Below are positions 2-58,435 of a DNA stretch of 64,000 nt, piece after piece. Where the stretch lies: contig NZ_CP152049.1 of assembly GCF_038630985.1 (NCBI RefSeq), positions 6,811,501-6,875,500 of the forward strand, given 5' to 3'. Both the position numbers and the translations under genes were made by a program. The notes below the pieces were generated by a model. That model saw only the letters and a list, made by a program, of their open reading frames with translations. It was not told where the DNA came from and did no database searches. This stretch comes from Paenibacillus sp. FSL H8-0548 (GTDB taxonomy: Bacteria > Bacillota > Bacilli > Paenibacillales > Paenibacillaceae). The first letter of the stretch is position 1. Every line of letters starts with the position of its first letter.

Positions 2-3000
2 TCGGTTGAAGCAGCAGTAATACCTGGAAATCTCATCACTAAAATGACACTAACGGACAAGGCTATACCTAGTACCGTTATTGCCTCTGTGTATGATTCT
101 GTTTACTACGTAAACCCGGAAATTCGTGTTGAGCTTGGGCAGTATCTCACTTTGAACTATGAGTGGGAGCTTCCGGAAGACCATTTGTATTCTGATGGAG
201 ATACATATACATTCGATCTTCCCGCAGAGTTTGAATTGTACGGCGGAAATATTCCAATAACAAATTTAGTCGGTAACCCAAGCCCTGGTACCTATAAAGT
301 AACAGGTCGTACAGTTACCGTTACATTTAATGACGAAATTAATGACGGTACTCCTACAGCTGGAACGCTCAGCTTCTGGAATTACTTCACGAAGCAGAGT
401 GTTAATAACAAAACAGAAGTAGATATTAAATTTAATATCGGGGATTCTATAACGATTCCTATCGCTCCCAAAGCAGGAACACTGCCTATTGAAAAAAAGG
501 GACAAGCCGATAAAGCATTCAATGCCGAAAATATAACTTGGACGGTAGACATCAACAAAAATTTAAAAAAAGTCACGAATGCTGTTGTCACCGATCCCAT
601 CCCTACTGGTTTAACTTTTACGCCAGGCACGTTGCAGGTTTTCAAAATGAGCTCGGACACGGATGGCGTCCTTTCAACTCCAGTACTCGTAAATCCATCC
701 GACTACCAAGCAACATTACCAGCGGCTCCCCAAAATGAATTGAAAATCGAACTCGGAGATATCAATTCTGTTTATCGCATTGTATTTATAACATCTCTCA
801 GCGACTCATCAGCAGCAGATTTCAACAATACTGCAACTTTGAGTGGAAGCAATATAAGCAATGTGTCCGATTCAGATAAAGTAACAAATACGAGGGGTAA
901 GCTGCTGGAAAAATCAGGCACTTATAATGAAACCACCCAGCTTATCGATTGGGAAATTAAATACAATTTTGGCGAAGACTCTATTACAGCTGCTGCATTG
1001 ACAGATTTATTTACTAATAAACATCAGCTGGTTGCAAATTCTATACAGGTTTATCCCGTTGCTGATCCTGTTGCAGGCACAATAGGAGCCGCGCTTCCGA
1101 CAACAGATTACTCTCTTAACTACGTTGTCAGTGGCCATAGCGCCTATACTGCCGATAAATCTGGATTCACACTGACTTTTACAAATCCAGCTACAATCAC
1201 TGGCGCTTATAAAATTAAATACCAAACGCGTCCAACGAATAATCTCTATAACAACGCAGCAATTAGCAACACGGTTTACTCAGGTGGCAAACAATCAAAC
1301 ACCGTTGATATTACCGCCAATCAACACTTTTTGCACAAATCAAATAGCAACGCAAACTATAATGCAAGAACGGTAGATTGGAAAGTTGAAATAAATACAG
1401 ACAACTACAGCCTTCAGGATTTAAAGTTTGAGGATACGTTTGCGAATGGATTAAAGCTTGTTCCAGGCAGTCTGGTCATCAAACAAAATAACGTAACGGT
1501 GACCGACTCGGTTTATACGCTAACTTATAAGCCAGCAGGCGTTACTGCTACAACTCAAGGCTTTATCGTCGATCTTCCTAATGGCACAAATGCCTACACG
1601 ATCACTTATACTACTGAGTTTGATTATACGAATACAGCCTATTTCTCCAACACTGATTTCTCGTTCGATAACGATGGGAAACTATCTTGGAAAGAGACTG
1701 TTGGCGGGTCAGTCCTAAATAAGACAGGTACTTCAACGTTTACTCCTAATAAACAGACACAAGATAATGGATACAAAAAAGGAAAATACAATGCTACTAC
1801 TAAAAAAATAACTTGGGATATTGGCATCAACTACAACAGCAAGATCATTAACAATGCAGTAGTAACGGATACACTCGAATCTGTGCAAAAGCTCGTCCCA
1901 GGTACTCTTGCCGTGCATAAGCTGACTGTGAACAGCGATGGCTCTACTACAGTTGGTGCTCTAGTAGCTCCAACCGGCAACTACACAGCTGTACTTCCGA
2001 CTCAAGCGAACAGCAATGAGTTAAAAATAACGTTTAGCAACCCAATAACTGAGCCTTATTTTATTACCTTCGATACTACTCTTGAAGGCGAAGTCATCGG
2101 AAATGCTGACAAAACCCTTAACAATCATGCATTCTTAAGCGGAACTGGGTACGTCACAAAGGATCTTAACAATTCTGTTTCGATTCCAAAAGCAGGTGAA
2201 TATGTAGCCAAAGAAGGCGCGCAAAGTGACGATTCGATTAACTGGAAAATATTCATTAACCGCGGCCAATCTACAGTCGATAATGCAAAGATCTTTGACG
2301 TTCCGAGCAAAAAACAAACGCTAGTGAAAGAATCATTTAAGCTCTATCTTACAAATGTCGACAGCAGTGGTAATGTAACTAGAGGCAGCGAGATATTGCC
2401 ATCCGATCCTATACACGGCTATACGCTATCCTTTACTGAGAATACGAATCCTGCTGTAAGCAGTGATGAGACTTTTGAGCTTAGCTTTAAAAACCAAATT
2501 TCTAAGCCTTATATTCTTGAATACCAATCGGTTATTGATGCAAAAGACAAGGAAACATTATCGAACACAGTTACCTTCACTGGTGATGGAGGAATTACTA
2601 AATCTCTCGATAGTCCTTTTGAGGTTAAGGTTGCCTTATCTGGCGGAGAAGGTACGGGCAGCACTTTAAAAGGTGATTTAAAAATTGTCAAAGTAGATGA
2701 AGATGATACTACTCATAAATTATTTGGAGCATCTTTTGAGCTTACACGTAATTCCAATGGTGATAAAAAAGTAGGAACAACTGATTCCAATGGTCTTCTA
2801 GAATTTAAAGACTTGCGCTATGGCAAATATACCTTAAAGGAAACAAGTGCTCCTGCAGGGTACTCGATTTCCGGAACAGGAATCTACGAGGTTACTATTA
2901 ACTCAAGCTCTGGTATTGAATTAGATCCAATTGGAAACAAGAAACTGCTTGGTAACTTGGAAGTAACAAAAGTCGATAACGCTGATACTTCTGTTTTTCT

Positions 3001-4315
3001 CGAAGGTGCCACATTCGAGTTGTTCAATAGCTCTAATGTAAGCTTGGGACAAAAAACAACACCGGCAAGCGGAAAGGTTACCTTCACTGGACTTCCGTAT
3101 GGCAATTATGTACTGAAGGAAATCTCTGCTCCTGCAGGCTACGATATTATGGGCAGCGGCTCAGAGAATATAACGATCTCTTCCGCTTCACAAACCAAAC
3201 AAGTAAAAAACAACAAAACGATTTTACTCGGTAATTTGGAAGTAACAAAAGTGGACAGCAAAGAAACTACTGTTCTTCTGGAAGGTGCTACATTTGAGTT
3301 GTTCGACAGCGCCAATGTAAGCTTAGGACAAAAAACAACAGCAGCAAACGGTAAAGTTACCTTCACCGGTCTTCCTTACGGCAATTATGTATTGAAAGAA
3401 ATTTCTGCGCCTGCAGGCTACAGTATTATTGGCAACGGTGAAACAACCATCACAATTGCTTCTGCTGCTGAATACAAACAAGTGGAAAATAATAAAATTA
3501 TTTTATACGGTGATTTGGAAGTAATAAAGGTGGATAACGACGATACTTCTGTTCTTCTTGAAGGAGCAACTTTTGAGTTATTCGACAGCGCTAATGTAAG
3601 CTTAGGACAAAAAACTACAGCGGCAAACGGAAAAATTACATTTACTGGTCTTCCTTACGGCAATTATGTTCTGAAGGAAATTTCTGCGCCAGCAGGCTAT
3701 AATCTTGTGGGTAGCGGTGAGGTCACGATTACGATTAATTCATCGTCAATTAAAACGATCACCATTAATAATAGTAAAACAGTGATACCTGTTCCAACCG
3801 CTACACCAACTGTAGCTCCGACTGCTACGCCGACAACAGCACCAACTGCTACACCGACTATAGCTCCAACTGCAACACCAGTTGCAACACCGTCTGTGGC
3901 GCCAACTACAACGCCAAAAACAGATACTGAGAAAGAAAAGACAAAAGAAAACACGCCGATCGAAGGTGAAATTGAAATACCTGACGGCAGTATACCAACT
4001 GGCGGAGTTACGCCACAGAATGGTACAGTCACCATATCTCCTGAAGGAAGTTGGGTATATACGCCAAACCCTGGATTTATCGGCAAGGATACCTTCTCCA
4101 TTATCATTACAGATCAAGACGATAATGAAGAAGAAATCTTCTTCGAAATCGACGTTGAGGAGCCTCCTAAAGGCGGAGTGATTGCAACACCGAACGTGCC
4201 TGTATTACCAAAAACAGGAGAAAGCAGCTACCTGCTTATACAGCTTCTTGGCTTCTCGATGATTGCCGTTGGTCTCGGAGCTTTAGTCATCAAGAGACGC
4301 AAAGCAAGACGTTAA
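2..4315 (+). CDS. LPXTG-anchored surface adhesin, 5' end cut by window edge
   Basis: The frame is open to the left edge, so the signal peptide and first domain are missing; about 1,437 codons are visible. Numbering from the Met at base 44, residues ~150-870 hold five modules of 140-147 residues, each opening with a K-x-G...I-x-W-x-I-x-x-N pattern and then an L-V-P-G-S-like strand, as in collagen-binding/isopeptide-forming adhesin domains. Four CnaB (SpaA-type) domains follow from ~877, 970, 1063 and 1156, each with KVD near its start and LKE-x-S-APAGY, the usual Lys and Glu of an isopeptide bond. Next come a Pro/Thr-rich stalk, a cadherin/Big-like domain and a sorting signal: LPKTG at ~1388, a hydrophobic segment and a KRRKARR tail. 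Expected to be covalently wall-anchored by a sortase, which is not in this window. The ligand is unknown. Confidence 0.9.
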   Translation, partial: SVEAAVIPGNLITKMTLTDKAIPSTVIASVYDSVYYVNPEIRVELGQYLTLNYEWELPEDHLYSDGDTYTFDLPAEFELYGGNIPITNLVGNPSPGTYKVTGRTVTVTFNDEINDGTPTAGTLSFWNYFTKQSVNNKTEVDIKFNIGDSITIPIAPKAGTLPIEKKGQADKAFNAENITWTVDINKNLKKVTNAVVTDPIPTGLTFTPGTLQVFKMSSDTDGVLSTPVLVNPSDYQATLPAAPQNELKIELGDINSVYRIVFITSLSDSSAADFNNTATLSGSNISNVSDSDKVTNTRGKLLEKSGTYNETTQLIDWEIKYNFGEDSITAAALTDLFTNKHQLVANSIQVYPVADPVAGTIGAALPTTDYSLNYVVSGHSAYTADKSGFTLTFTNPATITGAYKIKYQTRPTNNLYNNAAISNTVYSGGKQSNTVDITANQHFLHKSNSNANYNARTVDWKVEINTDNYSLQDLKFEDTFANGLKLVPGSLVIKQNNVTVTDSVYTLTYKPAGVTATTQGFIVDLPNGTNAYTITYTTEFDYTNTAYFSNTDFSFDNDGKLSWKETVGGSVLNKTGTSTFTPNKQTQDNGYKKGKYNATTKKITWDIGINYNSKIINNAVVTDTLESVQKLVPGTLAVHKLTVNSDGSTTVGALVAPTGNYTAVLPTQANSNELKITFSNPITEPYFITFDTTLEGEVIGNADKTLNNHAFLSGTGYVTKDLNNSVSIPKAGEYVAKEGAQSDDSINWKIFINRGQSTVDNAKIFDVPSKKQTLVKESFKLYLTNVDSSGNVTRGSEILPSDPIHGYTLSFTENTNPAVSSDETFELSFKNQISKPYILEYQSVIDAKDKETLSNTVTFTGDGGITKSLDSPFEVKVALSGGEGTGSTLKGDLKIVKVDEDDTTHKLFGASFELTRNSNGDKKVGTTDSNGLLEFKDLRYGKYTLKETSAPAGYSISGTGIYEVTINSSSGIELDPIGNKKLLGNLEVTKVDNADTSVFLEGATFELFNSSNVSLGQKTTPASGKVTFTGLPYGNYVLKEISAPAGYDIMGSGSENITISSASQTKQVKNNKTILLGNLEVTKVDSKETTVLLEGATFELFDSANVSLGQKTTAANGKVTFTGLPYGNYVLKEISAPAGYSIIGNGETTITIASAAEYKQVENNKIILYGDLEVIKVDNDDTSVLLEGATFELFDSANVSLGQKTTAANGKITFTGLPYGNYVLKEISAPAGYNLVGSGEVTITINSSSIKTITINNSKTVIPVPTATPTVAPTATPTTAPTATPTIAPTATPVATPSVAPTTTPKTDTEKEKTKENTPIEGEIEIPDGSIPTGGVTPQNGTVTISPEGSWVYTPNPGFIGKDTFSIIITDQDDNEEEIFFEIDVEEPPKGGVIATPNVPVLPKTGESSYLLIQLLGFSMIAVGLGALVIKRRKARR
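2951..3787 (+). repeat. Three tandem 279-bp repeats encoding CnaB domains
   Basis: Units start at 2951, 3230 and 3509 with an exact 93-codon period. All three encode nearly the same core (E-G-A-T-F-E-L-F, S-L-G-Q-K-T-T, G-L-P-Y-G-N-Y-V-L-K-E-I-S-A-P-A-G-Y). The preceding unit at 2672 is more diverged. The spacing implies duplication by unequal recombination, so copy number may vary between strains. Confidence 0.9.
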
Positions 4316-4354
4316 TCACAGAAGCAAGACTTGAAAGTATTTCATTAAGTTATC

Positions 4355-4445
4355 AAGGTGAAACGGCTGTCGCCGTCCTTTAGCAGCGCCAGCGCGTTTC
4401 ATTCCGGAGAGAAAGTATGGAAAAATAATATACTTACCTATATTT
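4355..4445 (+). repeat. Dispersed double-hairpin repeat, copy 1
   Basis: First of four related intergenic sequences (others at 12499, 47010, 56873). Hairpin 1 pairs GAAACGGCTGTCGCCG with a right arm ending GCGCGTTTC around a TCCTTTAG loop. Hairpin 2 ends in an ACTT-CCTATATTT arm. This copy lacks about six bases (AATATA) in the left arm of hairpin 2, so it is partly decayed. It lies between the convergent LPXTG and minJ genes and ends at the A-tract of the terminator at 4451. Confidence 0.85.
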
Positions 4446-4450
4446 CGAAA

Positions 4451-4488
4451 AAAAAGGTGGATCAGGAAATTTCCTGATCCACCTTTTT
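4451..4488. terminator. Bidirectional intrinsic terminator
   Basis: Perfect 14-bp inverted repeat at 4456-4483 (arm GGTGGATCAGGAAA) flanked by an A-tract on the left and TTTTT on the right. It can end both the LPXTG gene (plus) and minJ (minus). Confidence 0.9.
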
Positions 4489-4509: not shown

Positions 4510-5805
4510 TTAGTACTCTGCTTTCTCGATCTTTCCCCCGCGACGATTGGAAGCACGATAGCTTCGCAGCAGGGCGAGCAGGGAGGCTGGGCCTGCTGAA
4601 GCATAATAGTTCGCCTGTTCATCTGGCGCCAGAATTACTCCTAGCTGATGATGCTCGCCAGCGAATCTCGCACGCTGCGCAAACTTGATTTCCCCGGCTA
4701 GATTTAAAACCTCCAGCTTGCAAAATGCGGAATTTAATACGAGCGCCTCATACAGCTCTTCTTTCGTTTTTACTCTTACGCCATTTACCTTATGCACAAT
4801 CTCACCTGCAACAAGTCCCATCGTCTCAGCCGGCGTACCAGGCACGATATCAAGGATACGCAATCCGCGGGAATCATGTACGTATAATGGAGACTGAGCA
4901 GCCTCTATTATTTGGCTGCGCCATATGATGGCTTCATGCAGCAATAACGATACCAAACCAGCAACTGGCAGCAGCATCGGCTGATACCAAGCAAGCATTG
5001 CTGCCCCCGCTAAGCAAATACTGTATAATAGCAATCCCTTTGCAGCATGCTTTGCTTTGTCTTTCGGCAATAGCGAGCGTGTCATTTCGGTGAAGCCGAT
5101 AATCATCGGCAATGCTACAAACGTCCAGCCCTGTGAGAGGTCTGCGCCAAACAGCGTTGTCCATGGCAAGCTTAATGTTGAAGCACCGCTAGCAGCTGTC
5201 GGCACTAGCATGAGAAGCGGAACAGGCCAAAAGCCTTGCAGCATGTAGCCCCCAACCAGCTTCCCTCTTTTGCCTTCAAGAAATAATGGCGTGGCCAGTC
5301 GACTCCCCTGCGAGCGTACAAGCACCGCTTCCGCGAGGTGAAGAATAGCGACCAGCACAAGCAGCCCTGCAGCATCAATGCCCGCCAGTGAAGCCGCTAT
5401 TGCGCCTAGTGAATCGCTCCGCTCCGAAAGCGGTGTAAAACCCAAAACCCACTGCAAAATCGTGATGACTCCCGCACTGTACGCAAAGCATAAATACCTT
5501 ATCCGAATGAGCATTAGAATAGCAGCGATCACCCATAGCCAAATGACCGCTTCACCTGTTAAGGCAACCCCTATGAATGCTCCAGCAATAGAAACGACTA
5601 TACCGACCAACAGACCGGCCACTAACGCTTTAAAAACGAGCTTAGGCCAGCTATGCAGCTTAACTGCAAACATTTGCCGCTCCATTTTGATTTGCCTCAT
5701 ATACTGTAAAATAATAAATACAACAGCAATATAATAAAATGGCTGTATGACCAGTTGAACAGCCGTTTGTCCGAGCATTTCCAGCAACTCTATTGCTGTT
5801 TTCAA
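4510..5805 (-). CDS. minJ: MinJ-like polytopic membrane protein with C-terminal PDZ domain
   Basis: In B. subtilis, MinJ bridges DivIVA and MinD and places the Min division inhibitor at poles and septa. This 431-residue protein has several hydrophobic segments in its first ~300 residues and a PDZ-like domain near residues 320-400 (I-V-P-G-T-P-A-E-T-M-G-L-V-A-G-E-I-V), the MinJ layout. It follows ctpB, ftsX and ftsE as in the related B. subtilis region. I chose the TTG at 5805 because AAGGAG lies 8 nt upstream. The earlier in-frame start at 5895 would overlap the ctpB terminator. A generic PDZ membrane protein remains possible, since MinJ is called from architecture and neighbours. Confidence 0.75.
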   Translation of the reverse strand: MKTAIELLEMLGQTAVQLVIQPFYYIAVVFIILQYMRQIKMERQMFAVKLHSWPKLVFKALVAGLLVGIVVSIAGAFIGVALTGEAVIWLWVIAAILMLIRIRYLCFAYSAGVITILQWVLGFTPLSERSDSLGAIAASLAGIDAAGLLVLVAILHLAEAVLVRSQGSRLATPLFLEGKRGKLVGGYMLQGFWPVPLLMLVPTAASGASTLSLPWTTLFGADLSQGWTFVALPMIIGFTEMTRSLLPKDKAKHAAKGLLLYSICLAGAAMLAWYQPMLLPVAGLVSLLLHEAIIWRSQIIEAAQSPLYVHDSRGLRILDIVPGTPAETMGLVAGEIVHKVNGVRVKTKEELYEALVLNSAFCKLEVLNLAGEIKFAQRARFAGEHHQLGVILAPDEQANYYASAGPASLLALLRSYRASNRRGGKIEKAEY

Positions 5806-5844
5806 AGCTAACACTCCTTCGCTCGTTCCGCATTTCCTATATTC

Positions 5845-5885
5845 AAAAAAAAATAAAAGGCTAACTCCATCAAACAGAGTCAACC
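5845..5885 (-). terminator. Intrinsic terminator after ctpB
   Basis: On the minus strand GGTTGACTC pairs with GAGTTAGCC (one G-U) around a short loop, followed by a long T-rich run (plus-strand A-tract 5845-5858). It separates ctpB from minJ. Confidence 0.8.
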
Positions 5886-5909
5886 TTCTATTCATTCGAC
5901 ATTCTTATA

Positions 5910-12191: not shown

Positions 12192-12260
12192 CAGACTCAC
12201 TCCTGTAGCTTAATTAGCTGCTGCGCTCCTTCAGCTGTTTTTACCTTTGACCATGACTTA

Positions 12261-12343
12261 TTCAGCTACATTGTACTTTCTGCAATGGATTTAGCTTTTC
12301 ATCGTCACTTCTTCAGCTACATTGTACTTTCTGCAATGGATTT
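12261..12343 (+). repeat. Tandem pair of a 51-bp intergenic repeat
   Basis: Bases 12261-12292 and 12312-12343 are identical for 32 nt and start exactly 51 bp apart. The core (GCTACATTGTACTTTCTGCA) resembles the core of the pair at 21964-22030, which also has a 51-bp period. Confidence 0.85.
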
Positions 12344-12498
12344 CGCGTAATTGGCCTTTTTAGCTCTGATTTTCCACTATTCTTCTGCATTTCTGCCACG
12401 TAGCCTCCCTAATACCGGCCCATGTCAGGTTTTCATTGCAGAAACTGCAGTAGAAAAGGATCTTTACTTAAAGTAGTCATCACGATGCCAACTAAGTA

Positions 12499-12592
12499 GA
12501 AACGGCTGTCGCCGTCCTTTGGCGGCGTGCTGCGCGTTTCATTCCGAGAAATATAGAGAAAGTATGGTGAAATGATATACTTTCCTACATTT
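12499..12592 (+). repeat. Dispersed double-hairpin repeat, copy 2
   Basis: Matches copies 3 and 4 over nearly its full length; the first hairpin's right arm has changed (GGCGTGCTGC). Hairpin 2 pairs AAATATAG-A-GAAAGTAT with ATACTTTCCTACATTT. It lies between convergent VanW and argH genes and ends about a dozen bases before the argH terminator hairpin. Confidence 0.85.
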
Positions 12593-12677: not shown

Positions 12678-14093
12678 CTATCTGCTGCGCTCCAAATACT
12701 CTGTCACCCAAGCGGCTGTCTGCTCAAGCACGAGGTCGGCACGGCCGATGGCATCCTGTACCTGCGTCTTAGCTGTTCCGCCGTAAACATTGCGAGCATT
12801 AACCACCTGTTCAGGTTGAAGCACTGCATAAATACGATCATCGAACAAGGAGGAGAAAGTTTTAAACTCCTCCAGCGTCAGATCTAGCAAATATTTGTTT
12901 TGCTCGATGCAATACAATACCGTTTTGCCGATTACTTCATGCGCCTGGCGGAAAGGCAAGCCTTTGCCTACGAGGAAGTCAGCGATATCTGTCGCATTCG
13001 AGAAATCCTGGTTAACCGCTTGACGCATCCGGTCCTTATTGACCTTCATCGTAGCAATCATCGGAGCAAACAATTGAAGAGCGCCTTGCAGCGTCTTCAC
13101 GGTATCGAACATACCTTCCTTGTCTTCCTGCATATCCTTATTGTAAGCAAGCGGCAAAGATTTAAGCACCGTGAGCAAGCCTATTAGGTCGCCATAAACA
13201 CGTCCGGTTTTGCCGCGTACAAGCTCAGGCACATCCGGGTTTTTCTTTTGCGGCATGATGCTGCTTCCTGTGCAAAAAGCATCATCCAGCTCAACGAAAT
13301 GAAACTCTGTGCTTGACCATAATATAAGTTCTTCACTTAGTCGAGATAGATGCATCATAATGATCGAAGCATCAGCAAGGAACTCAACAATGAAGTCGCG
13401 ATCGCTTACAGCATCCAGGCTGTTTTCATACACGCTGTCGAATTTCAATTGGCTCGCCACAAAATGGCGATCAATCGGGAATGTCGTTCCCGCCAAAGCG
13501 CCAGCACCAAGCGGAAGCACGTTGATACGCTTGTAGCTGTCCTGTAGACGCTCGATATCGCGTCCAAACATCGAAACATAAGCCATCAAGTGATGGGCAA
13601 ATAGAATCGGCTGAGCACGTTGTAAATGCGTATAGCCAGGTACAATGGTGTCGATGTTGGCTTTCGCTTGATCGATAAGCGCCGATTGGAGCTTGTAGAG
13701 CATATCAACAAACTCAACCACACGCTTGCGAAGCCACAAATGCATATCCGTCGCCACTTGGTCATTCCGGCTACGTCCAGTGTGCAGCTTGCCGCCTACT
13801 GTGCCAACATCGTCAATAAGTGTCTTCTCGATATTCATATGAATATCTTCGTCTCCGATGGAGAATTCGATATCATTGCGCTTGATGCGTTGTAGGACGC
13901 GATGCAAGCCATCCTTAATTTTCTCAACGTCATCAGCTGGAAGAATGCCTTGCTTGCCAAGCATCGTTACATGCGCAAGACTACCTTGAATATCCTCTTC
14001 AGCCAGTTCCTTGTCGAACATGATCGAAGCTGTATATTCCTCTACCAATTGGTCCGTTTTTTTCGTAAAACGTCCGCCCCATAATTTGCTCAC
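12678..14093 (-). CDS. argH: Argininosuccinate lyase
   Basis: A 471-residue enzyme for the last arginine step, argininosuccinate to arginine plus fumarate. The fumarase/aspartase-superfamily signature [11 protein letters not shown] is visible in the second half, and the N-terminus S-K-L-W-G-G-R-F is typical of ArgH. Length matches the family. The GTG start at 14093 is preceded by GGGAG about 12 nt upstream. It is the last gene of argCJBDFGH and is followed by the terminator at 12601. Confidence 0.96.
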
Positions 14094-21840: not shown

Positions 21841-21963
21841 AATATTCCTCGGTAAAATAACCAAGATTCATCAGAACAACCTGCTCACCAGTGAGCATCC
21901 TTCTTCGTTCTACTTTGTTCAGCAACTTTGTTCAGAAGACTAGCTCATTTATCTTTTATTCCC

Positions 21964-22030
21964 TGCTACGCTGCACTTTCTACAGTAGAATAGCTCTTTT
22001 TCCGTTCTTCACCTTGCTACGCTGCACTTT
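21964..22030 (+). repeat. Second pair of the 51-bp intergenic repeat family
   Basis: TGCTACGCTGCACTTT occurs at 21964 and again at 22015, exactly 51 bp apart. The sequence resembles the units at 12261-12343. Further degenerate pieces ending in CAGTAGAAT lie near 22147. Confidence 0.75.
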
Positions 22031-22271
22031 TTACAATAGATTCGCTCGCTTTCATCAAATCCATCCCAATATGAGCAGTTTCTGCTGCATGATTACAATG
22101 TAGCTTCGACTTTTGAGTATGATGTAAGGTTTCTGTTGTATTTTGTGCAGTAGAATCCTCCGTTTACCGTAATATTTCTTACTACGCATTTGTACGAATG
22201 ACGAATAGCGCGCAATAAATCACCTTTCGGTCTCCAACTTCATCCAGGTCCCCTACAAATACCTGCCTCAA

Positions 22272-29800: not shown

Positions 29801-31657
29801 CTATGTGCTAAATTGCTGACTTAACCATGCGCTTTGAGAGTTCATTTTATCTAGATAGGTTTCCATTGCGGTGAATTGGCTGTAATACCGTTTTTCTAAG
29901 TTCTCTAACCGTAAAGTCATTGCGGCAATTTGTTCATCATAACGCAATGATTCTTTGCCCATTGCATAGTTGTTTTCGAGCGCTGTTGACGTACCCGCTT
30001 TTTCCGTAATTTGCTTGAACAAAATTGAAGCTTGATCATACAATCGAGTAGCAATGCCGTCACCGGAGCTTGTAGCTGCATCTGTAGTAAACAAAGCCAT
30101 CACTTCATCCGGTTTCTCAGCCAAAGCGGCCTTGAGCTTCGTTTCATCAATATAAAGCTTACCTTTGTCATCATACGATCCAGATATTGTAGAACCGCTG
30201 ATATTGGTATTGGAAATTCCGATGTCTGAAAGACTTTTCAACTGCCCAAGCGGTAGTCCGCTTAACGAATCACTCAAAGCGCGTCGAAGCGACTGAAGGC
30301 CATTGGAGAGTAATGGGTCATTTGCAAGCGTCCCTGCTTTAGCAGCAGTTTCCCACTTTTCTATTTCCTTCTCCGTCATATCTTCTTTCTGAGCATCGGT
30401 CAATGGTGGATAATCACGGTCACGCTTCTGTCCTATTCCAGTATTGACCGCTTCAATAAGCTCGTTATATTTATCTACAAACTTTTTAATTGTATCATAT
30501 ACTGCGTCAACATCTTGAGTAACTCCCACTGTCACTTCTTCAAAAGGACTTGCCTTCTTCAGCGTAAAATTCATACCGCCTATAGCGACCGTATTGGAGC
30601 TATACTTGCCGCTAACACCATTAAAAGTAACTTCAGCATCATTACCGTTCGTTGTTTTGACCGAATAAAAATCCTTGGGAACTGATGTCGAGCTTGTCAA
30701 ACCCAAAGATGTCAGTAATGCATTGCTTGAATCATCGCTGAAGCCACTTGCATCCAAAGCTTTATTTGGGTCATTAAAAGCTAGTTTACCTTCAGACGAT
30801 AAATATGCTGTAGCACCCGAAGCCGTTCCTATTTCTTTATTAATGTTATTAATTAGCTGTCCAATGGTCGTTTTATTGGTGATATCAAACGTTTTCTCAT
30901 CGCCGTTTACTGTCATTTTAAACTGCTTCGTGCCTGTCAACTCAGAGTTGATCACGGATAAAGAGGAAGTAAAGGCCTTATCACCCTCAAATACCTGCCC
31001 TTGAGATGTAGTGCTTCCACTGAGGTTAAGAAAATCATTAATCTTCTGGTCTTGCATGCTTAATGATATATTAGAAGCGTCTCCTGTTGCAGTAGAGACA
31101 AAAAACATCGTGTCCAGCTTCTTGTCATACGTAACTTTAACACCGGTTACAGAAGACTTGCTGTTCACTGCAGCAGCAAACTGCTCTAACGTATCTGTGG
31201 CCTTTATTGAAATTGTCGATGTACCCTTCTCTCCGCCAATGGTAAATCCGGTTTCGCCGGTCCAAGCCGCATCGGTTAATTCACCTAGAGTGGACACCTG
31301 GGCTAACTTTCCTTCTGATAATTTCCCCGTACTTAAAGATCCAGCCGAAGCCAATTTGTCAACCGTAAATTTATACTGTCCTTCATTAGCATTAGCCGTT
31401 CCCGTAACGGTAACAATACTTTCATTCGACGAGGTTACTTTTTTTGATAAATAACCTGTTTGCAAAGTCATATCGAACGCTGCGTTTTTAAAATCTAAAA
31501 TTTTGTTGTTCAGCGTACGATAATCGTCACGCTTCCATTGGAGCAATTGCTTTTGCTGTTGGACTTTTTCCATCGGAATCCTGCGTGCATCCATCATTTG
31601 TTTAATGATCGTATCGTAATCGATGCCCGAGGATAAACCTGAAATGCGATTTGCCAT
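29801..31657 (-). CDS. fliD: Flagellar filament cap protein FliD
   Basis: A 618-residue hook-associated protein 2. It opens with I-S-G-L-S-S-G-I-D-Y-D-T-I-I, typical of FliD, carries flagellin-IN-like modules in its middle (I-K-A-T-D-T-L-E-Q-F-A-A-A-V-N), and ends in a helical D0/D1 region. It is longer than many homologues (~500 residues). The ATG at 31657 follows AAAGGAG; the 31678 codon has no ribosome site. Confidence 0.92.
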   Translation of the reverse strand: MANRISGLSSGIDYDTIIKQMMDARRIPMEKVQQQKQLLQWKRDDYRTLNNKILDFKNAAFDMTLQTGYLSKKVTSSNESIVTVTGTANANEGQYKFTVDKLASAGSLSTGKLSEGKLAQVSTLGELTDAAWTGETGFTIGGEKGTSTISIKATDTLEQFAAAVNSKSSVTGVKVTYDKKLDTMFFVSTATGDASNISLSMQDQKINDFLNLSGSTTSQGQVFEGDKAFTSSLSVINSELTGTKQFKMTVNGDEKTFDITNKTTIGQLINNINKEIGTASGATAYLSSEGKLAFNDPNKALDASGFSDDSSNALLTSLGLTSSTSVPKDFYSVKTTNGNDAEVTFNGVSGKYSSNTVAIGGMNFTLKKASPFEEVTVGVTQDVDAVYDTIKKFVDKYNELIEAVNTGIGQKRDRDYPPLTDAQKEDMTEKEIEKWETAAKAGTLANDPLLSNGLQSLRRALSDSLSGLPLGQLKSLSDIGISNTNISGSTISGSYDDKGKLYIDETKLKAALAEKPDEVMALFTTDAATSSGDGIATRLYDQASILFKQITEKAGTSTALENNYAMGKESLRYDEQIAAMTLRLENLEKRYYSQFTAMETYLDKMNSQSAWLSQQFST

Positions 31658-45308: not shown

Positions 45309-45440
45309 TTTACTATATCCTTGTAGTTGTATGATGGTGAGCATAATGATCGAGGGAGAAGGTGGACTTTACTTATCCATAACTACCAGGGAAGCGATGA
45401 AATATAATCTGCATTTGGACACTTGGATTATATGGAGCTA

Positions 45441-45487
45441 GTAGTGTAACCGGCCCTCTTAGAACCACACTACCTATCTAAGAGGAG
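45441..45487 (+). promoter_or_regulatory. Possible RBS-sequestering pseudoknot
   Basis: Stem 1 pairs GTAGTGT (45441-45447) with ACACTAC (45467-45473). Stem 2 pairs CCTCTTAG (45455-45462) with CTAAGAGG (45478-45485). The stems interleave as in an H-type pseudoknot with loops of 7, 4 and 4 nt. Stem 2 covers the ribosome site AAGAGGAG. No known riboswitch class is recognised. Confidence 0.5.
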
Positions 45488-45495
45488 AGTGCTTA

Positions 45496-46983
45496 ATGTA
45501 TTATTGGAAAAAACGGGTTTCTGTAAGTTTATCCATTTTATTAATTCTTTCATTAGCGCTTGGCTCACTGGTCATGGCGGATGCAGGAAGCAGCGGAGGC
45601 TCGGCCACAACCGACCCGATTATCGAAAATAGCTGTCAGCAATATTCAGACGACAAAATAAATGTGGAAGCAACTAACGCAAGCATCGTAGACAATGGTG
45701 ACGGCACAGCAACAGCAACCTTCAAAACCAAGCTCGATTGTGTGAGAGTAAGCTTTTCCTCCTATGCGGCCCCCGAGGATTGGACTCTTGGCCCAAATGA
45801 AACTACAATTCCCTACCTCTTGCAGACGCACTTTAACGGCAAGACGATTGAATATCCGAAAGCTGGGAGCCATTCGATCACGATTAATATCCCAAAATGC
45901 CTCCCTTATCAATTAGATATCTACAGCGGCAAAGAGCTTATCACATTAGGTGTGGGTGCTCATGGCGATAAAATTTTAGGCTGGAAGCTTAAGCTTACCA
46001 ACACCTGTAAAGGAAATATCACAATTAATAAATTCTTGAACCATGTAGACGGAGCACCACATGCCGGTATTACCTTCGAGCTCTGGAAAAATGACGTTTT
46101 ATACACTACCGGAGCAACGGACGTCAATGGAGTTCTACAATTCAATGATCTTCCGATTGGAAACTACGTATTAAAAGAGCAAACCTTGAACGGCTTCACT
46201 ACAGATCTGGCGATAACCGAGCAAATAGCAGTCACCATGGATTCCTCAAAGCTAAAAGTCGTCATCAACACCCCTAAGCTAAAATTAGAAGCCGCTTGCT
46301 CTGCCGATCCAAATCAAACAAGAAACTGGACTGTCATCAACGAGAGCGATATTGAAGTTCCTTACACATGGGATATTACAGGCTCACCTCAAACGGGTGG
46401 AGGAACTGTTGCAGGAGCAGCCTCAACTCCAATTATTTCTACCGCCGAAATAACCGATCCAATCGCTCCAAATACTTTAAATCTTCACTGGGGGAGTGAT
46501 AAAACGATATCCCTTGTGAACAGTGGCGAGTTATGCCCTACGCCAACACCAACAACACCGCCAAGTCCTACACCTACAACAGAGACCTCTCCCACACCTA
46601 CGATAAGCACCACACCTACAACGGAGACCTCTCCTACACCTACGACAGGCTCTACACCTACAACAGTGACTTCTCCTACACCTACGACAAACACTACGCC
46701 TACAACGGAGACCTCTCCTGCACCTACGACAAGTACTGCGCCTTCAGAAACACCAGATGTATTAATTGATCTAGAGGATGAGGATACACCGATAGGAGGA
46801 GTTAATGCAGGTGTCAGTGATGAAGTCCCAATCGAAACGATTGTTGACTTAGGCGAAAATAAAGTTCCACTCGCTGCCCTTCCAAAAACAGGGGACTCCA
46901 GTCCAATTCCATATTATCTTATCGGTGCCTTTGCACTGACTGTTGGTTTCACCTCACTGCGCAAGCAAAGAAAACAACGCTAA
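45496..46983 (+). CDS. LPXTG wall-anchored protein with one CnaB domain
   Basis: A 495-residue secreted protein: signal peptide (basic start Y-Y-W-K-K-R, hydrophobic core, cut near V-M-A-D-A), an N-terminal beta-rich domain with paired Cys, one CnaB/SpaA-type domain (~residues 170-255; G-N-I-T-I-N-K-F, L-P-I-G-N-Y-V-L-K-E-Q), a second beta domain, a long Thr/Pro/Ser stalk of T-S-P-T-P-T-type repeats, and the sorting signal L-P-K-T-G-D-S-S with hydrophobic segment and basic tail. It is built like the adhesin at the left edge and is also followed by a double-hairpin repeat. ATG follows AAGAGGAG. Confidence 0.9.
   Translation: MYYWKKRVSVSLSILLILSLALGSLVMADAGSSGGSATTDPIIENSCQQYSDDKINVEATNASIVDNGDGTATATFKTKLDCVRVSFSSYAAPEDWTLGPNETTIPYLLQTHFNGKTIEYPKAGSHSITINIPKCLPYQLDIYSGKELITLGVGAHGDKILGWKLKLTNTCKGNITINKFLNHVDGAPHAGITFELWKNDVLYTTGATDVNGVLQFNDLPIGNYVLKEQTLNGFTTDLAITEQIAVTMDSSKLKVVINTPKLKLEAACSADPNQTRNWTVINESDIEVPYTWDITGSPQTGGGTVAGAASTPIISTAEITDPIAPNTLNLHWGSDKTISLVNSGELCPTPTPTTPPSPTPTTETSPTPTISTTPTTETSPTPTTGSTPTTVTSPTPTTNTTPTTETSPAPTTSTAPSETPDVLIDLEDEDTPIGGVNAGVSDEVPIETIVDLGENKVPLAALPKTGDSSPIPYYLIGAFALTVGFTSLRKQRKQR
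46540..46745 (+). repeat. Thr/Pro stalk-encoding tandem repeats
   Basis: Degenerate units of CCTACAACGGAGACCTCTCC-like sequence encode Thr-Pro-Thr/Ser stalk segments, with a recurring period near 60 bp. This is a typical site of length variation. Confidence 0.8.
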
Positions 46984-47009
46984 CGTAATGTACAAATTTA
47001 CTTCATGAC

Positions 47010-47107
47010 AAGGTGAAACGGCTGTCGCCGTCCTTTAGCGGCGCCAGCGCGTTTCACTCCCAAAAATATAGAGAAAGCATTGCGAAATGATATACTTTCC
47101 TATATTT
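47010..47107 (+). repeat. Dispersed double-hairpin repeat, copy 3
   Basis: 98 nt. Hairpin 1: GAAACGGCTGTCGCCG (47015-47030), loop TCCTTTAG, right arm 47039-47055, with one mismatch and one extra base. Hairpin 2: AAATATAGAGAAAGC with CTTTCCTATATTT. It follows the second LPXTG gene by 27 bp and ends at the A-tract of the terminator at 47110. Confidence 0.88.
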
Positions 47108-47109
47108 CA

Positions 47110-47163
47110 AAAAAAGGGGGCTTCCCATAAGGTCATTGACCAAGGTGGGATAGCCCCTTTTTA
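47110..47163. terminator. Intrinsic terminator adjoining repeat copy 3
   Basis: AAAGGGG...CCCCTTT outer stem with nested TCCCA/TGGGA and GGTCA/TGACC pairings, flanked by A- and T-tracts. Confidence 0.75.
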
Positions 47164-56773: not shown

Positions 56774-56872
56774 TTCCATTCACTCCTCAAAAAATTACAC
56801 TCGTACTTTATTTGTCGGTTAGTTGACATGAAATATTTAGGTTAAACTCCTTATTTGTGTTGTTCGGCAAAC

Positions 56873-56971
56873 AAGGTGAAACGGCTATCGCCGTCCTTTG
56901 GCGGCACCAGCGCGTTTCATTCCGGAGAAATATAGAGAAAGTATGGTGAAATGATCTACTTTCCTATATTT
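56873..56971 (+). repeat. Dispersed double-hairpin repeat, copy 4
   Basis: 99 nt, the best-preserved copy for hairpin 2 (AAATATAGAGAAAGTAT ... CTACTTTCCTATATTT). Unlike the others it is not between convergent genes: it lies between metK and the SLH gene, both minus, about 100 bp upstream of the SLH start. It still abuts a terminator A-tract, that of metK. Confidence 0.88.
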
Positions 56972-57061: not shown

Positions 57062-58276
57062 TTATACTCCGCTTTGAACGCCAGCGTCTGCTTTAAGCTT
57101 CTCTGCTTTGTCCACACGTTCCCAAGGAAGATCAACATCTGTACGGCCAAAATGACCATATGCAGCTGTCTGTCTGTAGATTGGACGACGCAGATCAAGC
57201 ATTTTGATAATGCCTGCAGGACGAAGATCAAAGTTGCTTGTGATCAGATCAACGAGCTTATCCTCACCGATTTTGCCCGTACCATAAGTGTCCACATTGA
57301 TGGATACTGGTTGAGCAACACCGATAGCATATGCCAATTGAATTTCACATTTGTCTGCAAGTCCTGCAGCTACGATGTTCTTAGCTACATAACGAGCAGC
57401 ATATGCTGCCGAACGGTCAACTTTTGTCGGATCCTTGCCGGAGAATGCGCCGCCGCCATGACGAGCATAGCCGCCATACGTATCAACGATAATTTTACGG
57501 CCAGTCAAGCCTGCATCACCTTGAGGTCCGCCAATAACAAAACGGCCAGTAGGGTTGATGAAGTATTTCGTATCTGCATCAAGCCATTCCACAGGAACGA
57601 CTGGCTTGATAACATGCTCAAGAATATCTTGTTGAATTTGCTCTAAGGTAATTTCTTCTGCATGCTGCGTGGAAACAACAATCGTGTCTACGCGTACTGG
57701 CTTGCCATCTGCGTACTCAATCGTAACTTGCGTTTTACCATCTGGACGAAGGTAATCAAGTGTCTCGTTCTTACGAACTTCAGACAAACGACGGGCAATA
57801 CGATGTGAAAGAGCAATAGGAAGCGGCATAAGCTCAGGCGTTTCGTTTGTTGCAAAACCAAACATAAGTCCTTGATCGCCTGCACCGATATCTTCATTTT
57901 CCAATTTCATATCTTTGCCATCACGAGTTTCCAGTGCTGCGTTAACGCCTTGGGCGATATCAGCTGACTGCTCATTAAGCGATGTCAAAACAGCACATGT
58001 GCTGGAGTCAAAGCCATATTTGGCACGTGTGTAACCAATTTCCTTAATCGTGCGGCGCGCAATAGCTGAAATATCAACATAATCCGCTTTGCTGCTAATT
58101 TCTCCAATTACCAAAACAAGACCAGTAGCTACAGAAACCTCACAAGCGACACGTGCAAATGGATCTGCTTCTAGAAATGCATCTAAGACAGCATCGGATA
58201 TTTGATCACAGATCTTATCCGGATGGCCTTCAGTTACTGATTCCGATGTGAACAAGTGGCGTCCTTTAACCGACAT
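57062..58276 (-). CDS. metK: S-adenosylmethionine synthetase
   Basis: A 404-residue enzyme making SAM from methionine and ATP. Motifs [19 protein letters not shown] and G-G-G-A-F-S-G-K-D are all present. I chose ATG 58276, preceded by TAGGAGG at good spacing; the longer reading to 58426 would start inside the upstream promoter. Its product is the methyl donor for FliB-type methylation. No S-box motif was found upstream; instead a promoter and a terminator hairpin are present. Confidence 0.97.
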
Positions 58277-58328
58277 CCGTATCAACCTCCTACAACCTGA
58301 ATATGAAATAAGTGCGGATACCCTACAC

Positions 58329-58360
58329 AAAAAATGAACCTTTTCCCGTAGGAAAAGGTT
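58329..58360 (-). terminator. Terminator hairpin in the metK leader
   Basis: On the minus strand AACCTTTTCC-TACG-GGAAAAGGTT, a perfect 10-bp stem, is followed by CATTTTTTG. It lies between the TTGACA/TATCAT promoter and metK, so it is either an attenuator or the end of the SASP transcript. Confidence 0.8.
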
Positions 58361-58384
58361 GTTTGACAACTCTTCTAAAACAGT

Positions 58385-58413
58385 ATGATACCGAAAATGT
58401 CGCTTAGTGTCAA
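58385..58413 (-). promoter_or_regulatory. Sigma-A promoter upstream of metK
   Basis: TTGACA (58408-58413) and TATCAT (58385-58390) separated by exactly 17 bp on the minus strand, just after the SASP stop codon. Confidence 0.75.
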
Positions 58414-58435
58414 TGGACGCCAGCATTTTTAGTAA

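Follow-up and report, generated by a model that had tools for sequence, protein, structure and literature searches.

The means by which very small bacterial repeats move, and the places where they land, are often obscure. Among the closest described systems are the REPs, presented as single palindromes of 20–40 bp with a GTAG or CGTC tag, of which the CGTC-tagged ones, too, are described as having no transposase dedicated to them (PMC3733652), and the PATEs of Haloquadratum, whose palindromes are described as matching those of resident IS605-type transposons (PMC3119063). The bcr repeats of Bacillus cereus, compared here by their description alone, are interspersed sequences of 100–400 bp with mobile traits, whose mobility is linked to a TTTAT motif and to a mechanism that may be recombination-like; the first of them is, according to its description, confined to the B. 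cereus group (PMC6542083). Furthermore, bacterial-C group II introns are reported to insert just behind intrinsic terminators and to be abundant in Firmicutes (PMC8919778).

The double-hairpin repeat described here, of which four copies lie in the window (the whole stretch of 64,000 nucleotides that was analyzed, positions 6,811,501-6,875,500 of a host genome consisting of one contig of 7.35 Mb), is best filed with the transposase-free palindromic mobile repeats. It is similar to the REP/RAYT system and to CGTC-tagged REPs in being a short palindromic intergenic repeat of high copy number with a fixed end, but differs from their published description by its length of ~98 nt, its two unlike hairpins, its CTTG end and its place behind terminators (PMC3733652; the main text of this source contains no occurrence of “Paenibacillus”). 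It has no GTAG-tagged palindrome of 20–40 bp, and no Y1 gene flanked by the repeat was found. With PATEs, as they are described, it shares the absence of coding capacity and of terminal inverted repeats, near-terminal palindromes and the lack of target duplication, whereas no resident IS605-type partner was found for it and the PATE description makes no mention of terminator targeting (PMC3119063). In detail, there is a hairpin at or near each end, no inverted repeat and no duplication at the metK site (see below), but no transposase-bearing IS605-type element sharing its ends was present in the fetched loci, and membership of IS200/IS605 fails because of this missing partner. The target niche is the same as that of bacterial-C introns; however, the ~98-nt repeat contains no ribozyme domains and no GTGYG start, and it begins with AAATATAGG, whereas the host's own group II introns are ~1.9 kb long, encode a reverse transcriptase and start with GTGCG. 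The initial annotation had not recognized a named family, and indeed Rfam 15 gave no match to the repeat at the gathering score, neither when the window was scanned at curated cut-offs nor when one copy and the copies of a relative were scanned permissively. No description of this family was found in the open-licence literature either, and it is on these two sources that our view of the family as undescribed rests.

All four copies that had been proposed for the window were located (Table 1), and a 21-nt core matched four times at ≤1 mismatch in the window and not once in 100 dinucleotide shuffles. Extent and strand required correction: the span first given, 4355..4488, does contain the repeat, but its end at 4488 takes in the neighboring terminator, which lies outside the unit, and the natural reading strand is the minus strand, on which the unit runs AAATATAGG...CTTG. 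In this orientation, the ~95–100 nt are arranged as AAATATAGG, the A+T-rich hairpin 1, CTCCGG, the G+C-rich hairpin 2 and CACCTTG. Hairpin 1 starts right at the element boundary, and a comparison of AAATATAGG with CACCTTG reveals no terminal inverted repeats. TTG forms the right end in 117 of 133 single or array-first copies from the host and related genomes, and no consensus exists in the flank beyond it among the same 133 copies. Each window copy folds into hairpins, as anticipated, and is more stable than the mean of its own shuffles, with z-scores for copies 1–4 of −2.6, −3.7, −6.6 and −5.8 (RNA parameters) or −4.0, −5.1, −6.9 and −5.3 (DNA parameters). What had escaped the initial annotation is that, on the minus strand, every window copy adjoins an intrinsic terminator. 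Convergent genes flank three of the copies, and the terminators carry A/T tracts on both sides, so that they may serve both strands.

Table 1. Repeat copies and adjoining terminators in the window (positions counted from the first nucleotide of the window).
Feature	Position	Strand	Remarks
Copy 1	4354..4445	-	92 nt; 8 nt lost from one arm of hairpin 1
Intrinsic terminator stem-loop adjoining copy 1	4456..4483	-	between convergent genes 44-4315 (+) and 4510-5895 (-)
T-tract of terminator 4456..4483	4448-4455	read on -	runs into copy 1
Copy 2	12494..12592	-	99 nt; 3' of argH (12678-14093); right end decayed
Terminator stem-loop	12606..12644	-	separates argH from copy 2
Copy 3	47009..47107	-	99 nt; hairpins 1 and 2 both intact
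Terminator stem-loop adjoining copy 3	47117..47157	-	nearest listed minus-strand gene ends 47539
Copy 4	56872..56971	-	100 nt; 3' of metK (57062-58426); site empty in relatives
Terminator stem-loop	56979..57014	-	separates metK from copy 4

Mapping of the copies to 3' ends, as had been proposed, revealed a preferred place just 3' of intrinsic terminators and in sense with them. By eye, almost all of the host's copies that lie inside fetched sequence (67 of 150) have another copy or the T-tract of a terminator as their upstream flank. In the flank set, which comprises the 133 single or array-first copies from host and related genomes, a T-tract is found directly upstream of 117 copies, in comparison to 57 on the other side and 85 of 400 random positions. 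A T-tract together with a hairpin of ≤ −8 kcal/mol precedes 77/133 copies (31/50 from the host, 46/83 from other genomes), but follows only 6/133 and occurs at 7/400 random positions, and a looser measure (hairpin ≤ −9 kcal/mol within 22 nt) gave 96/133, 31/133 and 52/200, respectively, the distance from stem to insertion being 7–10 nt in 59 of the 96. T-runs alone do not account for this placement, because those next to elements are terminator-like more often than others: a hairpin accompanies 47/74 element T-runs, taken from several species, versus 80/276 background intergenic T-runs, taken from the host genome alone (odds ratio 4.3, p=1e-7). The sequence before the insertion point is a T-rich tract with a purine at position −1 in 101/133 cases, which reflects a preference and no fixed word. 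Since 56/133 copies fail the strict test for T-tract plus hairpin, terminator placement is likewise a strong preference and no rule; the copy at 30882 of G022, a genome of the host's genus, for example, lies in a T-rich place without an evident hairpin. The gene upstream is oriented like the element in 39 of 52 arrays.

Filled and empty sites were found by comparison with relatives. At metK, the host carries the element and six relatives (G011, G016, G003, G022, G019, and G020) do not. Joining the metK flanks after removal of the 100-nt AAATATAGG...CTTG unit leaves no internal gap versus G003 and G016 and one mismatch at the junction, and both the T-tract and TTTG are conserved across filled and empty sites; insertion at this locus therefore took place without target duplication or loss. 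CTTG has to be counted as part of the element, because its removal gives the internally ungapped empty site. CTTG is also the target of IS91-like elements, a candidate that was discarded, as the motif belongs to the element at metK and no consensus follows it. Further host loci that are empty in at least one relative are argH, 5384762, 5386716, 5406612 and the triple array at 5441393, and conversely the sites of three copies in relatives (G003 20892, G022 30882, and G022 70697) are empty in the host, giving nine loci in total. Six joined-flank comparisons were made; internal gaps are absent from the two at metK, while the flanks at 5384762, 5386716, 5406612 and G022 70697 are gapped versus their empty sites, as expected of diverged intergenic DNA, and are no proof of precise insertion there. 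Two loci are also occupied in a relative, namely that of copy 1 in G016 and argH in G003. The argH copy of G003 belongs to a different subfamily and the site is empty in G016, G020, G019 and G022, which suggests that the argH terminator may have been targeted repeatedly. In the relatives, the segments corresponding to the window copy at 47 kb are 693–1429 nt long and not comparable, and the site at 5354481 lies inside a larger composite repeat that gives no clean empty-site comparison.

The initial comparison with REP/MITE-like elements is apt as far as a short repeated element of mobile type is concerned, but a MITE in the strict sense does not agree with the missing inverted repeats and the missing duplication at metK. 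An ordinary MITE moved by a DDE transposase, or the end of an insertion sequence, would be small, repeated and intergenic as well; given, in addition, the fixed orientation to the target and a fetched sequence in which no split long parent occurs, we regard this origin as scarcely credible.

Moreover, the element occurs in head-to-tail arrays, in which CTTG is joined directly to AAATATA and which include arrays of mixed subfamilies. A hairpin with a ..GTTT..YTTG end directly precedes 38 of 165 unique full copies; one of these junctions turned out to be a terminator, and at the other 37 the preceding 98 nt are ≥88% identical in 20 cases, just below this value in one and under 83% in 16. By eye, the 16 divergent neighbors comprise ten full-length units of another subfamily and six shortened relics. 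The ten mixed-subfamily junctions are poorly explained by tandem duplication, so that the element's own right end appears to serve as a landing site, too. At four loci (L062, L086, L220, and L069), relics that keep little beyond the last 15–20 nt of the element (GCCGTTTCACCTTG) sit directly before a full copy, the one at L220 being fused to a terminator arm.

The traces of mobility and the terminator preference are well supported. Judged from such traces, i.e., dispersed copies, filled and empty sites, target preference and arrays, the repeat would be mobile, and we favor, with a probability of roughly 0.55, a non-autonomous two-hairpin transposable element of REP/PATE-like type that is targeted to terminators and moved in trans. 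The trans-acting enzyme, which we infer and which would not be encoded by the element, could bind the hairpins as single strands and cut after “hairpin + short spacer + TTR”. To such an enzyme, a terminator (stem, T-tract, TTTR) and the right end of the element (hairpin 2, CACCTTG) would look alike, so that either could receive new copies on its 3' side, where no gene would be disrupted and little transcription is expected. Single-strand cutting by one enzyme would account for the hairpins, the absence of inverted repeats and of duplication, the sense of insertion, the CTTG end and the arrays, and this mode would resemble IS200/IS605-type (HUH) single-strand transposition. Elements of the latter type have two hairpins, cause no target duplication and insert directionally 3' of a short motif; in IS608, however, the hairpin does not begin at the very boundary, unlike hairpin 1 here.

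The high copy number predicted from four copies in the window was borne out, and the proposed covariance-model search showed the repeat to be neither absent nor rare elsewhere in host and relatives. A model built from 30 copies detected at least 150 in the host genome (weakest listed E=8.5e-8), and blastn gave at least 48 matches there, with 40 of 224 candidates scored. Among 61 measured host copies, the median identity to the nearest dispersed neighbor is 0.948. Named genomes contain an exact 28-nt piece covering hairpin 2 with the right end in 65 stretches, of which 64 carry a Paenibacillus title (MAGs included) and one is titled “Bacillus sp. FJAT-28004”. Within the host's genus, copy numbers range from 0 to at least 101 per genome; the one-contig genome G013 has at least 101 copies. 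Of the 149 genomes sampled from the order, which we take to be Paenibacillales, 42 contain the family according to a second model, used under strict filters and with at most 27 matches scored per genome; they represent 12 of 38 genera and four families. Five copies in G096 are near-identical by eye, which suggests that the element may have been active there recently. With a 21-nt piece, no IMG/VR contig was hit; with one copy as query, phage records gave no match and two plasmid records of P. cellulosilyticus matched over half the unit. In genus g15, two element sites are common to several species (five and three loci, by eye). The copy shared by five genomes (L271-L274, L278) looks as though a leader region had absorbed it, an AGGAGG-like ribosome site and an ATG following immediately upon its CTTG end. 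A more far-reaching proposal, which we put forward tentatively and hold to be possible rather than probable, is that the whole order harbors a class of transposase-free mobile hairpin elements that would recognize a “hairpin plus TTR” shape as their landing site, with terminators and their own right ends alike as targets, and that would be moved by a type of enzyme so far unconnected with transposition.

Differences in one hairpin arm that are not all compensated had been taken to mean that not every copy is under strict structural selection. This is true of individual decayed copies, and within the host genome covariation is seen at 1 of 30 pairs, its near-absence being as expected for recent copies; for the family as a whole it does not apply, since across the genus compensation is strong in the outer stem of hairpin 1. 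A diverse alignment of 31 sequences was made with MAFFT and its structure assigned by hand from the consensus; three of 23 cluster representatives (L020, L226, and L229) were left out, and eight named and three window copies were added by hand. In this set, 92% of cells pair, double-sided changes occur at 9 pairs versus 3.2 in shuffles, the covariation score is 0.165 versus 0.073, and six of the eight outer pairs of hairpin 1 show compensatory changes. By this alignment, the family as a whole has kept the structure of hairpin 1, even if not every decayed copy has. In the same set, double changes are fewer in hairpin 2, but some distant copies have near-perfect hairpin 2 stems of different sequence (one was folded). 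Unaided, RNAalifold predicted the outer stem of hairpin 1 and, in place of the large hairpin 2, a smaller GGACGGC..GCCGTTT hairpin.

Such compensatory changes, the place behind terminators and the two g15 sites common to several species would also suit a functional 3' structure, such as an insulator, a backup terminator or an element of mRNA ends, that selection would retain behind genes. However, the element follows the T-tract and would thus be mostly untranscribed from the preceding gene, at nine loci at least one relative has an empty site, as compared to two comparable loci that are occupied in a relative, and copy numbers vary from 0 to over 100 within one genus, with arrays of mixed subfamilies; a function of this kind is in our view very improbable.

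The initial annotation had also asked for a transposase-bearing parent with the same ends, and none was present in the fetched loci. There, 9 orphan 5' and 23 orphan 3' halves were seen, and no pair of halves 40–5000 nt apart that could represent a split long parent. The lone matches in the host genome, 13 to hairpin 2 (from the first 100 of 154 listed) and two to hairpin 1, were dismissed as traces of an autonomous parent, as they look degenerate or resemble other subfamilies. A linked gene was rejected as well: after clustering of 492 ORFs near copies, the biggest clusters resemble common paralogues (by eye, first residues).

Regarding the mover in trans, a strict REP/RAYT or IS200/IS605 remnant, whose Y1 transposase made the copies and was later lost from many genomes, would fit the two hairpins, the lack of duplication and the directional insertion expected of that family. 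Y1 genes (PF01797) are present in G003, G010, G014, G096 and others, and one stop-containing locus of G010 (L075) has copies ~670 nt upstream, on one side. But no match to PF01797 exists in the host genome, in G013, G016, G018 (63% complete) and G022, or in eight of a set of 15 element-bearing genomes; Y1 occurs in 7/15 element-bearing versus 7/13 element-free genomes, i.e., without association, and no searched Y1 locus has ends formed by the repeat. RAYT/Y1 was therefore rejected as the resident mover, missing as it is from the host and unassociated with the element, and its role as a vanished ancestor appears quite unlikely.

Group II introns of the host occupy this landing niche as well, so that an RNA route is the chief rival of a DNA element moved in trans: the element would be transcribed and inserted, SINE-like, by class-C group II intron machinery. 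The host genome has ten reverse-transcriptase matches (PF00078; one below cut-off), its own group II introns lie behind hairpin-plus-T sequences (seven intron copies, by eye), the niche is that described for bacterial-C introns (PMC8919778), and it is the 3' end of the element that survives in the 13 lone hairpin-2 matches inspected. PF00078 is found in 10/15 element-bearing and 6/13 element-free genomes. Against retroposition, however, stands the finding that five element-rich genomes (G013, G022, G076, G137, and G096) have no PF00078 match, although the copies in G096 look recent. In addition, the unit has no ribozyme and hence no obvious chemistry for reverse splicing, and none of the reverse-transcriptase loci searched has the repeat as its ends; at one host intron, L308, a copy lies ~370 nt past the end. 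A reverse transcriptase, present in the host and missing from these five genomes, was thus rejected as the mover, and we consider the RNA route unlikely. Four host introns of ~1.9 kb (L301-L304) share over 99.7% identity and lie behind terminator-like sequence, so that intron spread in this genome is recent.

The orientation of the copies fits either a single-strand DNA or an RNA route. Arrays are oriented with replication in 114/136 cases versus 52/80 background terminators (p=0.002), the control being one 400-kb region and the replichore split being fitted to the data; within the control region alone, the difference (15/18 versus 52/80) is not significant (p=0.17). As 248 of 326 ORFs at 5.12–5.52 Mb lie on the minus strand, the replichore bias seems largely to track gene orientation. 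At convergent gene pairs, the two orientations are found 10 versus 4 times.

In the preferred reading of an element moved in trans, terminators would offer a safe harbor to two unrelated kinds of element. The family combines sharp ends, empty sites, a target preference and a genome (G013) with neither Y1 nor reverse transcriptase, which is also the case in the element-rich genomes G022, G076 and G137; the question of what moves transposase-free repeats thereby becomes directly testable.

Further features were noted in the neighborhood of the copies. The sole Rfam match in the window at curated cut-offs is a c-di-GMP-II riboswitch (RF01786, 76.7 bits) at 45381-45464 (+), just upstream of an LPXTG-anchored repeat protein (45496-46983). 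The gene at 44-4315 (+) encodes a protein of 1423 aa with three 279-nt internal repeats and an LPXTG anchor, which has weak matches to SpaH/EbpB-type pilins below the curated cut-off. Other repeat families occur at 12239-12340 and 21961-22053 as well as at further host loci such as L002, L004, L013 and L021, among them 51-nt tandem units of GCTGCACTTT.TACA.TAGAA-like sequence. Another is a larger composite repeat marked by a GAAACGAAG/CTTCGTTTC motif, and several copies of the element lie inserted in this composite.
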